A model generated the notes under the pieces. That model had not been told where the DNA came from and searched no databases. It worked only from the letters and a program-made list of their open reading frames with translations. Made by a program: the position numbers and the translations under genes. Below, one piece after another: positions 24,310 through 61,594 of a stretch of 64,000 nucleotides of DNA (position 1 is the stretch's first letter; every line of letters starts with the position of its first letter). This DNA is from a virus. The stretch covers positions 101,428 through 165,427 of IMG/VR virus record IMGVR_UViG_3300026512_000003; one strand, 5' to 3'.

Positions 24310-25218
24310 ATGAGACACCCAATATATAAATACGAGATGCTTCCAGTACAAAAGGCTGCGACGCTACTTGCAAACAATAAATGTAGTCTTGATACGGCTT
24401 GCAATATGGCTCTTCAAGGAGTTGGAGATATGACAGTGCTGTCTAAGAGGATGAAGAGTGCATCAGAAAGTCTTTTACGGGTAAAGTTAACAGCGCTTGC
24501 TCTAATGATTAGCGAAGGACATGTTTTTATAGATGCTGCATCAGACGATTGGAACTCAGCTGTTTCTCAAAACACTATAAAGAAAATGAGCCCAGCTTTT
24601 TTAAAATTTCCATTTACTAGTGGAGCTATTGAATTGAACGATATGGTCTATCATTTTGTAACAAAGGAAGATAGAATACTTCTTGTTTTTATGCATAGCA
24701 AAGAAATGGATAATATGATAAGAGATGGGTATACAGAAGAAGAGGTGATGAACAAAATAGAGAATGATGAGGAAATGCCTTTTTTTAACTGTATAGATAT
24801 AGAGTTTAAGGAAAAAACAGTAGAAGAAAGCATAATGAAAAGGAATACATATTTTGCTTCAAAGGACCGTTTAAAAAAAGTAGAAGAGGAAATCATATTT
24901 AACTTTTTGTCTGTAATGATGTTTATAACATTGAAAAGAAACACAGAGGAAGTGCGAGAAAAAATAGCAAAAGGAAAGCATAGCAAAAAGAGCAATGTCC
25001 CGAAACACAATATCAGAGTTGTAAATGTTAGGCAAATAGCAAAGAAAGGTTTGCCTCCGACAGGAAAGAAAAACCAAAAAAGCGATAAGACATGGATGGT
25101 GAGAGGGCATTGGCGAAATCAGTTTTATGCTTCAGAAGACATAAACAAACCAAAATGGATTGAGCCATATTGGAAGGGCGATGGAAAAGAAGTTCTTAGC
25201 AAAATTTACAAAACATAA
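24310..25218 (+). CDS. Hypothetical protein with RGHWR...WIEPYWKG C-terminus, 302 aa
   Basis: The ATG at 24310 follows AGAGGTAAAG. The first 230 residues are mixed alpha/beta and unfamiliar. The C-terminus reads WMVRGHWRNQFYASEDINKP then KWIEPYWKG, a module that I remember recurring at the ends of many phage and plasmid proteins. A lysine-rich linker (about 230-275) precedes it. The function of the module is not established; a link to anti-CRISPR AcrVA2-like proteins is a speculation to test by profile comparison. Confidence 0.6.
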   Translation: MRHPIYKYEMLPVQKAATLLANNKCSLDTACNMALQGVGDMTVLSKRMKSASESLLRVKLTALALMISEGHVFIDAASDDWNSAVSQNTIKKMSPAFLKFPFTSGAIELNDMVYHFVTKEDRILLVFMHSKEMDNMIRDGYTEEEVMNKIENDEEMPFFNCIDIEFKEKTVEESIMKRNTYFASKDRLKKVEEEIIFNFLSVMMFITLKRNTEEVREKIAKGKHSKKSNVPKHNIRVVNVRQIAKKGLPPTGKKNQKSDKTWMVRGHWRNQFYASEDINKPKWIEPYWKGDGKEVLSKIYKT

Positions 25219-25272
25219 AAAAGCAAAAGTAGTAAAGTCGAAAATAAACAATCCATAAAGGAGGGTTGGGAA

Positions 25273-25428
25273 ATGTTTTGTAAAACAAAAGAGTCTATCG
25301 TAGGAAAATTTTAGATATTCGTAACTTTTGTAATTGTAGCACTTACTATAAGTATATTGTTAAGTTTTGTCAAAAAAAGACAAGAGATAGTTTTAGATGT
25401 GAGTAAAAGATTAAATAAAAAAGGATGA
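25273..25428 (+). pseudogene. Small membrane protein interrupted by an in-frame amber codon
   Basis: AAAGGAGGG precedes the ATG at 25273. After 13 codons comes TAG (25312-25314). The same frame then continues for 37 codons with a clear membrane span (IFVTFVIVALTISILLSFV) and basic tail, ending at TGA 25428 just before the next ribosome site. A single change, for example TGG to TAG, would explain it. TAG is a normal stop elsewhere in this phage, so either the gene is broken or it depends on read-through. Confidence 0.55.
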
Positions 25429-48248: not shown

Positions 48249-48749
48249 ATGGGATATACAACAGATTTTTCAGGTGAATTTGAGTTAAAATTCAAAGATG
48301 AGGCAACAAGAAAAAAAGTGACTGAGTTGGTAAATGGCTTAGCTGATACAAGAAGAATGAAACGCGATCTGAGCAAACTTGGATGTTATACAGAAGAGGA
48401 AATAAAAAACTTCGGGGAAGAGGGGGAATTTTATTATCCTACAGAGAAATCGGAGTATTGGAGTTTTGCAGGGCAAAATAGAGAAGATCCGAGCATCTTG
48501 GAGTATAACAAGCCTCCGAAGAGTCAGCCAGGTCTTTGGTTGCAATGGGTTATAGATGGAGATAGCTTAGTGTGGGATGAAAGTGAAAAATTCTATCATT
48601 ACACAGAATGGCTAAATTATTTGATTAAGAAAATTTTCAAACCAAATGGCGTAGAGATCTCAGGAGCCGTTACATATCAAGGTGAAGAATGCGGAGATGT
48701 AGGTAGAATAGAAATTATAAACGGAAGAGCTTATAAGGAGGAAATGTAA
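48249..48749 (+). CDS. MGYTTDFSG-type conserved phage protein, 166 aa
   Basis: MGYTTDFSGEFEL, TRRMKRDL, EYNKPPKSQPGLWLQWVI, KFYHYTEWLNYLIKKIF, and a final VTYQGEECGDVGRIEI are the successive landmarks of a widespread phage family. It is often found in accessory regions of large phages, and no function is known to me. It shares a TAATG junction with the next gene. Confidence 0.7.
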   Translation: MGYTTDFSGEFELKFKDEATRKKVTELVNGLADTRRMKRDLSKLGCYTEEEIKNFGEEGEFYYPTEKSEYWSFAGQNREDPSILEYNKPPKSQPGLWLQWVIDGDSLVWDESEKFYHYTEWLNYLIKKIFKPNGVEISGAVTYQGEECGDVGRIEIINGRAYKEEM

Positions 48750-58389: not shown

Positions 58390-59154
58390 ATGTATAGCCT
58401 TTCCGTTTTAGATAAGCATTGGGATTTAACGGGAACTCTAGAAAACGATGATCATTTTGATTACGCTCTAGAGTTGTCCGCATACTACAAGGGTCAAACT
58501 ACTGAAATAAGTGAGGTTGCTCAAGACATAGTGTGGATTAGAGAAACTACTTTTAGGCAGTGGTTTGTTGAAGCTATGCTATTTGTCGATGGGGACCCTG
58601 CTTTAATTGGACAGTGTATAGATATGAAGAAAGAATCTATTGAGGCATACAAAAGTATCTTCTTTGAAGTATCTAGGCTCCGAGGTCAACTTGGAAAGAC
58701 TGAGTATTATGAAATTATTATGTCTGAAAACGATAAGAATACACAAGAGTATTCAAGAGCTAGCATGTTAAGAGAAGCACATCTTGGTGGACCAGAGGTA
58801 ATAATGGAACAGTTTAACATAAATCTTTTTGACTACTCTCTATCAGCATATAAAGATACTGCACAGAAGGTACTCGCTTGGAAAGAGAAAGTGTTTGAGA
58901 GAGACGGTGGTGATTATGACCAATTTCAAAAAGGACTTAAAGCTAAATCGGAAACTCTTAATGTTATACAAAAAGCATCTGCGAATACAGACAGCAATAA
59001 GATGTCAGACATTGCTGCACTTACTCGTGTACTTGAAGAAATGCACGCCGAAGGTCTTGTGGAGGGCGAAATTGAACTTGACTCATACAATGTAGAGTTA
59101 GAGGAAGTAATAGGTCTTCCTGAGACTATAGAAGAAGAGGAACCAACAGAATGA
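58390..59154 (+). CDS. Hypothetical protein, 254 aa
   Basis: Helical and acidic (EISEVAQDIVWIRETTFRQW; YSRASMLREAHLGGPEVIME). Its C-terminal 40 residues are strongly acidic. A terminase-small-like or assembly role can be imagined from position after the large structural-type gene, but no motif supports it. It overlaps the next gene by ATGA. Confidence 0.55.
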   Translation: MYSLSVLDKHWDLTGTLENDDHFDYALELSAYYKGQTTEISEVAQDIVWIRETTFRQWFVEAMLFVDGDPALIGQCIDMKKESIEAYKSIFFEVSRLRGQLGKTEYYEIIMSENDKNTQEYSRASMLREAHLGGPEVIMEQFNINLFDYSLSAYKDTAQKVLAWKEKVFERDGGDYDQFQKGLKAKSETLNVIQKASANTDSNKMSDIAALTRVLEEMHAEGLVEGEIELDSYNVELEEVIGLPETIEEEEPTE

Positions 59155-60017
59155 ATCAGTTAGAAAAAACAGCAATATTAGAGTTGCTTGCCACAGGAGC
59201 TGCAGCACATGTAGCACAAAACATAGCAGCAAAAAGAACTTTGTTGAATAAAAAAGGTGGAGTAACTCTAGCTAGTAGATTTATTAAAGGTCAAACAAAC
59301 AAAAGAAATAGTTTTACAAGGGGATTGTCTAATGCAATCGTTCCTGAAAAAGCTATGCTTGCAGATGAATTACAACCTGTTGTGGGTTCTATTAAGACAA
59401 TGACAAGACCAGAAAGGGCAGTTGCTCAGCAAATAGGTCAAGGAAACATATCTAGAGCTGTTAATTCAAAAATATTCCGAGATAGCCCTGCACTAAATAG
59501 TATGCTTGGAAACGCACTTCCTGGAATGAATGTGAGTAGAGTACAAAATTACCTAAAAGCATTTCCTAAAAGAGCTCAGGCTTTTGATAATAACTTTAAG
59601 CAAAGCAAACTTGGTCAAGTATCTTCAGGCTTAACAGACGCTCTATCTAAACAGAAGCTTGACAATATTACAGTGGGTAATATGAACAAGATGGAAGCCT
59701 TAGGCGAGGGGGTAGGAAACTTTGCACTTCAGGTTGAGCCAGGTGCATTAGCAGTAAATAGTTTTAAAAGAGTAATAGGGAGTAAAAATGATGCTCCTCA
59801 AAGTGTATATGGAAAAATAAAAGGGTATGTAAAAGAACCTATAGAAAAGAAAATAGTACTAAATCCTGTGGAAAATGCATTTAATAACGGTTTGCAAGGT
59901 CAAGCAAATAATAGAATCAAGATGGGTACAAAAAGTTTGATTATGAATCCTGTAGCTGCGGCTGCTGAAGATCTTGCAAATAGCTCGGGTCTTATACTAG
60001 CGGGGCATAACAAATAG
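59151..60017 (+). CDS. Putative virion protein with LEKTAILELL start, 288 aa
   Basis: The start MNQLEKTAILELLATGAAAH contains the KTA motif within a hydrophobic helix. The rest is basic and helical with many asparagines and alanines (FPKRAQAFDNNFKQSKLGQV). A role as an internal or injected protein would fit the composition. No family is recognised. Confidence 0.55.
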   Translation: MNQLEKTAILELLATGAAAHVAQNIAAKRTLLNKKGGVTLASRFIKGQTNKRNSFTRGLSNAIVPEKAMLADELQPVVGSIKTMTRPERAVAQQIGQGNISRAVNSKIFRDSPALNSMLGNALPGMNVSRVQNYLKAFPKRAQAFDNNFKQSKLGQVSSGLTDALSKQKLDNITVGNMNKMEALGEGVGNFALQVEPGALAVNSFKRVIGSKNDAPQSVYGKIKGYVKEPIEKKIVLNPVENAFNNGLQGQANNRIKMGTKSLIMNPVAAAAEDLANSSGLILAGHNK

Positions 60018-60040
60018 ACATAATTAGGAGAGTAGGAGAA

Positions 60041-60655
60041 ATGGAAGATAAAGATACAAGAGGCCTTGTTATAAGAGGAGAAAAGACGCAAAACATAGGG
60101 TTAAGAAAAGCTTTTCATAAGGCTCTTAAAGACCATGGTGCAACAGGAATAGCTATAAATAATCCCTACAACAATACAGTGAATGCGTTTGTTAAGGCTC
60201 CTAAAAGCACAAGAGAAAAAGTATATAATGCTGTAAAAGAGCATGTTAAGAGTAGTACAGGAAAAACAATTAAGATTTCTGAAAAAAAAGGTGAAAAGCT
60301 ACAGAGGACATCTGTCTCTAAACAGAAACTGATGGATGTCGCAAATCAGCAATTCCTACTATATTTAATGAAAAATCCTAGTAGTGATAGGTCAAGCTAT
60401 CCTCAACTAACTGTACATAAAGCAGAAAGTGATATGATGCCTAGATTTAATCTACGGAAAAAGAATGGAAGGTATATTGGAAGTCTTACAGAGCAAGGCA
60501 AAAGACAGCTATTAGGGAAAACTCCGCACTATGGTAAGTTTAGAGCAAGGAACCTAGAAACTTCAATGGAAAATGCTCTTAGCCGTATGCACCCTAAAGA
60601 TGCAAGCATTACAAGAGGCCTACTAGATAGGACGAATTCGGTAATTTTGGATTGA
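60041..60655 (+). CDS. Hypothetical basic protein, 204 aa
   Basis: Basic throughout, with GLRKAFHKALKDHGATGIAI and FRARNLETSMENALSRMHPK. TAGGAG lies upstream of the start. It ends the rightward block, directly before the regulatory leader at 60669. Not recognised. Confidence 0.55.
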   Translation: MEDKDTRGLVIRGEKTQNIGLRKAFHKALKDHGATGIAINNPYNNTVNAFVKAPKSTREKVYNAVKEHVKSSTGKTIKISEKKGEKLQRTSVSKQKLMDVANQQFLLYLMKNPSSDRSSYPQLTVHKAESDMMPRFNLRKKNGRYIGSLTEQGKRQLLGKTPHYGKFRARNLETSMENALSRMHPKDASITRGLLDRTNSVILD

Positions 60656-60668
60656 CAGGGCATAAAAA

Positions 60669-60698
60669 TTAGACTTATTGTTCGAATTAGTGTATAAT
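60669..60698 (+). promoter_or_regulatory. Promoter of the Rha-type regulator leader
   Basis: TTAGAC (60669-60674) and TATAAT (60693-60698) are 18 bases apart. The -10 lies in the dyad CGAATTA/TAATTCG (60683-60701), which could bind a repressor. Transcription would start near 60705 and give a leader of about 235 bases. Confidence 0.55.
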
Positions 60699-60716
60699 TC
60701 GTTTGCAGGTGGCATG

Positions 60717-60757
60717 AAGCACTATGTATAAACAAAAGTGCTTTGTGTCTCTATTTT
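60717..60757 (+). terminator. Hairpin with T-rich tail at the 5' end of the leader
   Basis: AAGCACT (60717-60723) and AGTGCTT (60737-60743) pair. TGTGTCTCTATTTT follows. So close to the start of the transcript, it could act as an attenuator. Confidence 0.5.
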
Positions 60758-60794
60758 AAATTTTCTCATAAAAAACAAAGAATAATAAAATCAT

Positions 60795-60879
60795 TTCAGA
60801 GAGAGTAGAACAAAAGGTTTCCAAGCACCTGGCACAGCTACTCTCTCTGAAGTGTTTTATGTTGTGCCGAAGCTTGGAA
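60795..60879 (+). promoter_or_regulatory. Interleaved 14-bp and 14-bp inverted repeats, potential large pseudoknot
   Basis: Stem 1 is TTCAGAGAGAGTAG (60795-60808) with CTACTCTCTCTGAA (60838-60851). Stem 2 is TTCCAAGC plus GGCACA (60819-60826, 60831-60836) with TGTGCC plus GCTTGGAA (60863-60868, 60872-60879). The order A-B-A'-B' is that of an H-type pseudoknot, with loops of 10, 1 and 11 bases; the two helices might instead be alternatives. The gene at 60941 follows 61 bases later. No known RNA family comes to mind. Confidence 0.7.
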
Positions 60880-60940
60880 TCTCCGTACAACAACTCACAC
60901 TCAAAAGAAAAAACAAATCCTAAGATTCTGAAGAACGATA

Positions 60941-61594
60941 ATGGGTAATGCAATTGAACAAAATGCTCAGAATGACAAAAGAGTTGTAACATTAAAAGAA
61001 ATAGTTGATGTTATTAATATAGATAGAGCTAAGAGCAATGAAAGACCTCTTGAACACAGTAAGCAAATGAAAAAGGTTGAAGAGCTTATGAAACAGCCTA
61101 GTTTTGGGGCGGTCGCCAAAATGTCGACCGTGTACAACGAACAAGGTCAGAAGCTAGAAACATACTTTTTAACTAAGAAACAAGCAATGGCTGTTGGTGC
61201 AAAACTTGACAACAAAAGGTTGATGTTTGTGATAGATAAGCTTGAAGATCTCACAGCTGTAAAACAACTTACAGTGACAGAGCAAATTATACTTATTGCA
61301 CAAGGTCACACAGAGATTAATGAAAGAGTAGAACTAGTAGAGCAAAAGATGGATGACATTATTGCAAATAGAAAGATAGAGAACTGGCAACAGAAAGCTT
61401 TAACTGATGCAAAGAATGCAAAAGTGTACAGCTTAGCACAGGATGATAAAGAACTAGCTACAAAATTGCACCGAAAAGTATGGAGTCTATTTAAAAAGAA
61501 GTTCCACCTTCCTAGATACAATGAGTTGCCTGTTTCTAAATACGAAGAGGGCTTAGAATATATTAGCAATCTTACAATGGCTGACCTAGTATAA
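60941..61594 (+). CDS. Rha-type phage regulator with ORF6C-like C-terminus, 217 aa
   Basis: Residues 10-100 match the Rha/AntA pattern: FGAVAKMSTVYNEQGQKLET then YFLTKKQAMAVGAKLDNKRL. The C-terminal 80 residues (WQQKALTDAKNAKVYSLAQD; LHRKVWSLFKKKFHLPRYNE) are typical of the ORF6C or KilA-C type domains. Such proteins act as antirepressors or regulators in phages. It stands alone behind the structured leader, so its own expression may be under RNA-level control. No good ribosome site is evident: ACGATA directly precedes ATG, with GAAGAA upstream. Confidence 0.8.
   Translation: MGNAIEQNAQNDKRVVTLKEIVDVINIDRAKSNERPLEHSKQMKKVEELMKQPSFGAVAKMSTVYNEQGQKLETYFLTKKQAMAVGAKLDNKRLMFVIDKLEDLTAVKQLTVTEQIILIAQGHTEINERVELVEQKMDDIIANRKIENWQQKALTDAKNAKVYSLAQDDKELATKLHRKVWSLFKKKFHLPRYNELPVSKYEEGLEYISNLTMADLV

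Follow-up and report, generated by a model that had tools for sequence, protein, structure and literature searches.

C4 is a textbook phage immunity system run by antisense RNA, in which the C4 RNA is processed by RNase P to approximately 77 nt and acts in trans. In satellite phage P4, prophage immunity depends on the CI RNA, a small RNA cut from the leader under its control, which pairs with nearby leader sites and acts by premature transcription termination, the genes concerned being different. C4 contacts its target through two loops, of which b′ masks the ribosome-binding site and a′ confers specificity (PMC5320573), and c4 represses the Ant proteins in trans (PMC8546580). In prophage Gifsy-1, short IsrK activates orf45-anrP (PMC4825925). 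The P1 record annotates c4 at 48343–48419, followed by a2 (48423–48429), b2 (48452–48459), icd and ant1. Folding of P1 c4 gave a long stem, the P2 hairpin, P3 with b′ TCACTAAC in its loop, seven unpaired nucleotides (CTGTCAA) that constitute a′, and the 3′ arm; a2 and then b2 lie downstream of c4.

We compared these systems with a leader in the window, the 64,000-nt stretch of DNA analysed here, which covers positions 101428–165427 of a 165,427-base contig (a 165-kb fragment). The preliminary description had reported a perfect inverted repeat interleaved with two further pairs of blocks in this leader, and every block it named was found where it had been placed. The element sits between the end of a structural-type gene block and an operon headed by an ORF6C gene. 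Its features, all on the plus strand, are as follows.

60670–60698, plus strand: promoter-like site TAGACT-17-TATAAT, by consensus match only, with TTGACA at 60652 as an alternative −35
60711–60749, plus strand: upstream hairpin GGCATGAAGCAC..GTGCTTTGTGTC, then TCTCTATTTT, from the fold
60785–60808, plus strand: 5′ arm of the enclosing stem P1, from pairing and fold; covaries in relatives
60815–60830, plus strand: P3-like hairpin AGGU[UUCCAAGC]ACCU with b′ in its loop, from the fold
60819–60826, plus strand: antisense block b′, TTCCAAGC, the 8-nt loop
60831–60837, plus strand: antisense block a′, GGCACAG, 7 nt single-stranded in the fold, abutting the 3′ arm of P1
60838–60860, plus strand: 3′ arm of P1, from pairing and fold
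60859–60948, plus strand: small ORF of 29 codons (Shine-Dalgarno −2.8 kcal/mol), beginning just before a2/b2, its stop overlapping the ORF6C start
60861–60891, plus strand: target hairpin T, showing b2 in an 11-nt loop (−9.1 kcal/mol for 60860–60892)
60863–60869, plus strand: target block a2, TTGTGCC, within the 5′ arm of T, by complementarity to a′
60872–60879, plus strand: target block b2, GCTTGGAA, by complementarity to b′
60941–61594, plus strand: gene for an ORF6C-domain protein (Pfam 3e-14), a putative antirepressor, first of the new operon

The enclosing stem P1 comprises 23 bp (60785–60808 with 60838–60860) with one base unpaired, its inner part being the perfect 14-bp repeat (60795–60808/60838–60851), and the fold of 60785–60862 reaches −34.3 kcal/mol (z = −7.5). 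Inside it, the 4 bp of P3 between AGGU (60815–60818) and ACCU (60827–60830) close a loop that is exactly the eight nucleotides of b′, and both b′ and a′ stay single-stranded in the hairpin (computed unpaired probability 0.9–1.0). Downstream, b′ (60819–60826) pairs with b2 (60872–60879) and GGCACA (60831–60836) pairs with TGTGCC (60864–60869), or 7 bp counting a G·U at 60837/60863. These two pairings are mutually nested, forming one helix with an internal loop, and both are interleaved with the 14-bp stem; the predicted helices use disjoint bases and may be able to form together as an H-type pseudoknot. The a′b′/a2b2 duplex was computed at −24.4 kcal/mol, against opening costs of about 6 kcal/mol for P3 and 9 kcal/mol for T; when the downstream side was shuffled 5000 times, the duplex value was reached 4 times. 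No other interleaved pair of 12 + 8 bp or more exists in the whole contig, and twelve simulated genomes contained none, which bears out the earlier claim that the arrangement is beyond chance. A second interleaved pair, at window positions 25155–25284, was rejected as AT-rich chance. The b2 word GCTTGGAA occurs ten times on the plus strand of the contig and once on the minus strand, and the plus-strand sites inspected (window 226, 20961, 35070, 58876 and 59504) lie within ORFs.

It had also been proposed that the leader forms two mutually exclusive hairpins. Competition for bases does not occur in the window, because no base of the 14-bp stem belongs to any of the other helices; the true competitors of the a′/a2 and b′/b2 pairing are P3 (60815–60830) and T (60861–60891), two adjacent hairpins that display complementary loops, b′ in the first and b2 in the second. 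The window element is an RNA module rather than a lone pseudoknot. The proposal of a regulatory RNA element in the leader held up, with compensatory changes in relatives, but the terms 'large pseudoknot' and 'attenuator' probably do not describe it best, since the loop-to-loop layout, with b′ in one loop and its partner in the next, fits P1 c4 with its a2 and b2 sites.

As for the surrounding leader, the promoter assigned upstream does include a TATAAT-like site at 60693–60698, but such promoter-like sites are no more numerous than in shuffles; a −10-like TATAAT, read by eye, is often found upstream of the hairpin in related leaders. The hairpin at 60711–60749 is possibly the end of an upstream transcript or a stabilising 5′ hairpin, and leaders L109–L111 likewise have a hairpin between the −10 and the element. 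The expected regulator gene downstream proved to be the ORF6C gene, whose start codon lies 61 nt beyond the end of b2, so in the window the pairing is not directly over the ribosome-binding site. The 29-codon ORF at 60859–60948 is a possible, weak candidate for a coupling ORF, and a matching ORF is not consistently present among relatives. In related leaders, a conserved ACTCYYCTTRAA box and then YYGAAAG, between b2 and the start codon, replace the normal Shine-Dalgarno sequence; examples of the box, which is weakly boxA-like, are L118:1082–1093, L110:605–616 and L112:1168–1179. We considered ACTCTCCTTAAA as a boxA and found it unconvincing, host rrn leaders showing TGTTCTTT-type sequences.

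A search of IMG/VR that ignored the RNA and took as queries the ORF6C protein plus four relatives already known yielded 19 loci; more came from a further scan and from 399 Campylobacterales genomes. About 12 further leaders have the same plan, before AntA-ORF6C, Rha-ORF6C and AntA genes. Their b′/b2 blocks are given below.

L118: TCCCAAGC/GCTTGGGA
L109–L111: GTCAAGC/GCTTGAC
L114: GTCTAGGCTCT/AGAGCCTAGAC
L115: GGGTCTCAAGCA/TGCTTGAGACCC
L112: GGTACCAAGTC/GACTTGGTACC
L113: GGGTACCAAGC/GCTTGGTACCC
L108: GGTTCTCAAGTCC/GGACTTGAGAACC
L116: GAGACCTACC/GGTAGGTCTC
L140, in a Campylobacterales genome, with an enclosing stem of about 26 bp: TTACCAGT/ACTGGTAA

The genes behind these modules encode AntA with ORF6C, Rha with ORF6C, or AntA plus a KilAC match below threshold, and the proteins of L109, L113, L114 and L140 are AntA/AntB antirepressors, the domain being named for P1 Ant. 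An AGG..CCU hairpin of the P3 type also occurs in L109, L110, L118a and L118b, and in these four leaders, as in the window, b2 lies in the T loop. The plan is not uniform, because in L108, L112, L115 and L113b the b′ block adjoins or overlaps a P1 arm and b′–b2 is the most stable fold. L105 and L106, whose proteins are close to that of the window (49% identity for the L105 ORF6C protein), carry a variant: their loop CCTCC..AGTAC is complementary to GTACT..GGAGG, with CCTCC facing the GGAGG that forms the ORF6C Shine-Dalgarno sequence, and the pairing is predicted to cover the ribosome-binding site. The Sulfurimonas locus L124 encodes an ORF6C protein that is also 49% identical, yet it has no clear element. 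At the DNA level, a search of phage records with the window leader returned short chance matches only, searches with two related leaders returned no matches, and the exact stem pattern was not found in IMG/VR.

For each gene, the best interleaved pair in the preceding 190 nt was scored and compared with 40 shuffles. The score exceeded all 40 shuffles for the window, L108, L112, L115, L118, L105 and L106 (in the last two, the top-scoring helices are other than the a′/b′ blocks) and was reached by one or two shuffles for L109, L110, L113, L114, L116 and L140; seven leaders without the element remained at noise level. Outside the covariation set, pairing counts as evidence only through this shuffle test, because b′ was located by its complementarity.

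Covariation was assessed in the window, L109, L110, L118a and L118b, where the register could be set without reference to complementarity because the AGG..CCU hairpin is shared and the a2–b2 spacing is 3 nt (4 nt in L118b). A MAFFT alignment lost the P1/P3 register, so pairs were counted on explicit segments. In this set, which has four clearly distinct members since L109 and L110 are nearly identical, all 35 cells of P1 were paired, with two-sided changes in five of seven pairs; a′/a2 was paired in 25 of 25 cells (two-sided changes in three of five pairs) and b′/b2 in 38 of 40 (five of eight). When the 3′ sides were re-dealt among the five sequences, the observed totals were reached in 4, 6 and 2 of 120 permutations for P1, a′/a2 and b′/b2, respectively. 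The covariation check suggested at the outset thus gave helices retained through compensatory changes, and the sequences give good support to a regulatory element that acts at the RNA level in this phage regulator's leader.

Further copies of the element precede other genes. Second elements were found at L118:3097–3231 before a small cysteine-containing ORF, at L113:2036–2167 before the gene for a 270-aa protein that has no Pfam match and at L108:2115–2255 before that for a 265-aa protein without assigned function, and in phage G454 (L152, L153) a 49-aa ORF is preceded by two copies that are nearly identical, with blocks AGCACCAC/GTGGTGCT and ACGCA/TGCGT. Each extra copy has its own loop sequence, except that the two G454 copies share theirs. 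In a Campylobacterales genome, a gene for an R.HinP1I-like restriction endonuclease is preceded by a strong hairpin (L141:950–1127) whose loop is complementary to sequence further downstream and which may be a further copy. Simulated sequence of the same size gave four matches of this loose kind, which makes single matches without the downstream box or P3 uncertain.

The phage itself was placed through its other genes. The gene order of the upstream block resembles the structural-gene block of Vibrio phage D69, with partial and weak sequence matches, and searches with the neighbouring structural genes gave no close relative. A protease-based search returned 80 related phages; ORF6C was absent from 50 of these that were searched and the p60041 gene from 20 that were searched. 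The closest two relatives, L095 and L096, have other genes at the syntenic place. The absence of the module from the nearest relatives by structural genes suggests that the window phage acquired it. Gene order breaks at about 59150, and two genes before the element (window 59151–60655) have no match in the closest relatives, where other genes follow the 58390 gene. L008 was discarded as a relative, its 12-residue match to an RNA-phage replicase being due to chance. A GroEL-like chaperonin is encoded on the minus strand at L005:4180–5601, contig 64180–65601 (phrog_5725, 3e-60). The proposed link to Campylobacterales rests on the protein relatives and L140.

We consider that the leader is probably a C4-type antisense RNA together with its target, controlling synthesis of the ORF6C antirepressor. 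The predicted helices, their order, their compensatory conservation and their position before antirepressor genes can be read from the sequences; release of a small RNA, action in trans, the sign of repression and the step affected, translation or coupled termination, are inferred by analogy. The leader transcript would fold into the P1 hairpin (60785–60860), displaying b′ in the 8-nt loop with a′ beside it, and the downstream mRNA would offer a2 and b2, the latter in the T loop. Loop–loop contact between b′ and b2 would come first, after which zipping of a′ with a2 would open T and yield a 15-bp duplex that blocks antirepressor expression. As for P1 c4, the hairpin RNA may be released and pair in trans with other transcripts; alternatively, the pairing may take place within the same transcript. 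As the duplex would lie about 60 nt upstream of the start, in the window it may act on the small ORF, at a standby site or through coupled termination. Counting against the C4-type reading, the contig lacks a recognised integrase or HTH_3 repressor, which leaves an antirepressor without an obvious opponent in this large phage.

A purely cis-acting element, in which an H-type pseudoknot or kissing hairpins within one transcript control ORF6C translation or termination with no small RNA, is unlikely in our judgement; it is nevertheless a serious rival, because b′–b2 is most stable and excludes P1 in some relatives. In L108, L108b, L112, L115 and L113b it is the minimum-energy fold competing with P1, which is switch-like, a single leader contains every part, each within a few bases of the next, and the extra copies within one phage (L118b, L113b, L108b and the two in G454) suit a cis device. 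However, b′ in a dedicated hairpin loop with b2 in a facing loop is an antisense/target arrangement, and the blocks change fastest yet stay complementary, as would be expected for immunity specificity. Far less probable is that a released RNA activates the gene, with the opening of T making the ACTCTCCTTAAA box, or else a weak start, available for translation or antitermination, in the manner of short IsrK on orf45-anrP in Gifsy-1 (PMC4825925). Besides this precedent, the 3′ arm of T is the ACTCTCCTTAAA box in most relatives and the ORF6C start has almost no Shine-Dalgarno sequence (−1.4 kcal/mol, the second weakest of 42 starts tested), but the box is only weakly boxA-like beside the TGTTCTTT-type sequences of host rrn leaders and is poorly kept in the window (CTCACACTCAAAAG). 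Very improbable is chance or a site that works as DNA, such as an operator palindrome, a cruciform or a recombination site. Long perfect inverted repeats can serve as DNA sites, but G·U pairs occur in P1, in the window stem and in a′/a2 (L110, L106), and the element, kept by compensatory change, always stands in sense orientation before its gene; chance is excluded by the leader shuffles and the scan of the contig and simulated genomes.

Building on the C4-type reading, we tentatively propose a new family of antisense-RNA immunity systems in Campylobacterota phages, which we hold possible rather than probable. Its interchangeable leader cassettes would have fast-changing, self-matching loops that set superinfection specificity, and would also stand before replication or other genes as independent channels in one phage. 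If the C4-type reading is true, C4-like antirepressor control is more widespread than the Rfam model detects, and many natural block pairs become available for studying the evolution of loop–loop antisense specificity and superinfection immunity groups.

We finally compared the module with the described systems. The earlier statement that no RNA family matches stands as far as Rfam is concerned, no relevant family being found on the window, the element or its relatives, but the architecture fits a known kind, that of P1 c4. The C4 model (RF01695) gave no match at the gathering score on the window, none at E ≤ 5 on the element and none at E ≤ 0.5 among 15 related loci; P1 itself matched at 68.8 bits. 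The upstream a1/b1 sites (RF03163) had no Rfam match either; the loop can pair with the upstream leader (−17.4 kcal/mol), but not via the a′/b′ blocks in a2–b2 order. Reading of the element in the window found no CCA-like 3′ end as in c4. The P2 hairpin of P1 c4 is absent, whereas the P1 and P3 stems are present. Unlike in P1/P7 C4, the targets fold into their own hairpin T, b2 lies 61 nt from the start codon and some phages have more than one copy. The published range of C4 is Proteobacteria and their phages (PMC2864571); the module, by contrast, is linked to Campylobacterales. Compared with IsrK/orf45/anrP, the module would be alike in having leader RNA and mRNA from one promoter, a small ORF, a downstream antirepressor and alternative leader structures, but IsrK activates and ends at a terminator (PMC4825925). 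The likeness to the P4 CI RNA, compared by description only, would be a small RNA from a controlled leader with nearby pairing sites. Closest is P1 c4, which shares with the window the enclosing stem, b′ in the P3 loop, the 7-nt a′ before the 3′ arm, a2 and then b2 downstream, and a position ahead of an antirepressor gene or operon (ORF6C in the window, AntA- or Rha-ORF6C in relatives). Several relatives have AntA-domain antirepressors, as P1 Ant, and in both systems the specificity blocks differ between phages; icd overlaps ant in P1, and the 29-codon ORF overlaps the ORF6C start in the window. The phages linked to Campylobacterales would thus carry a C4-like design whose recognition blocks covary and whose sequence shows no similarity to C4.
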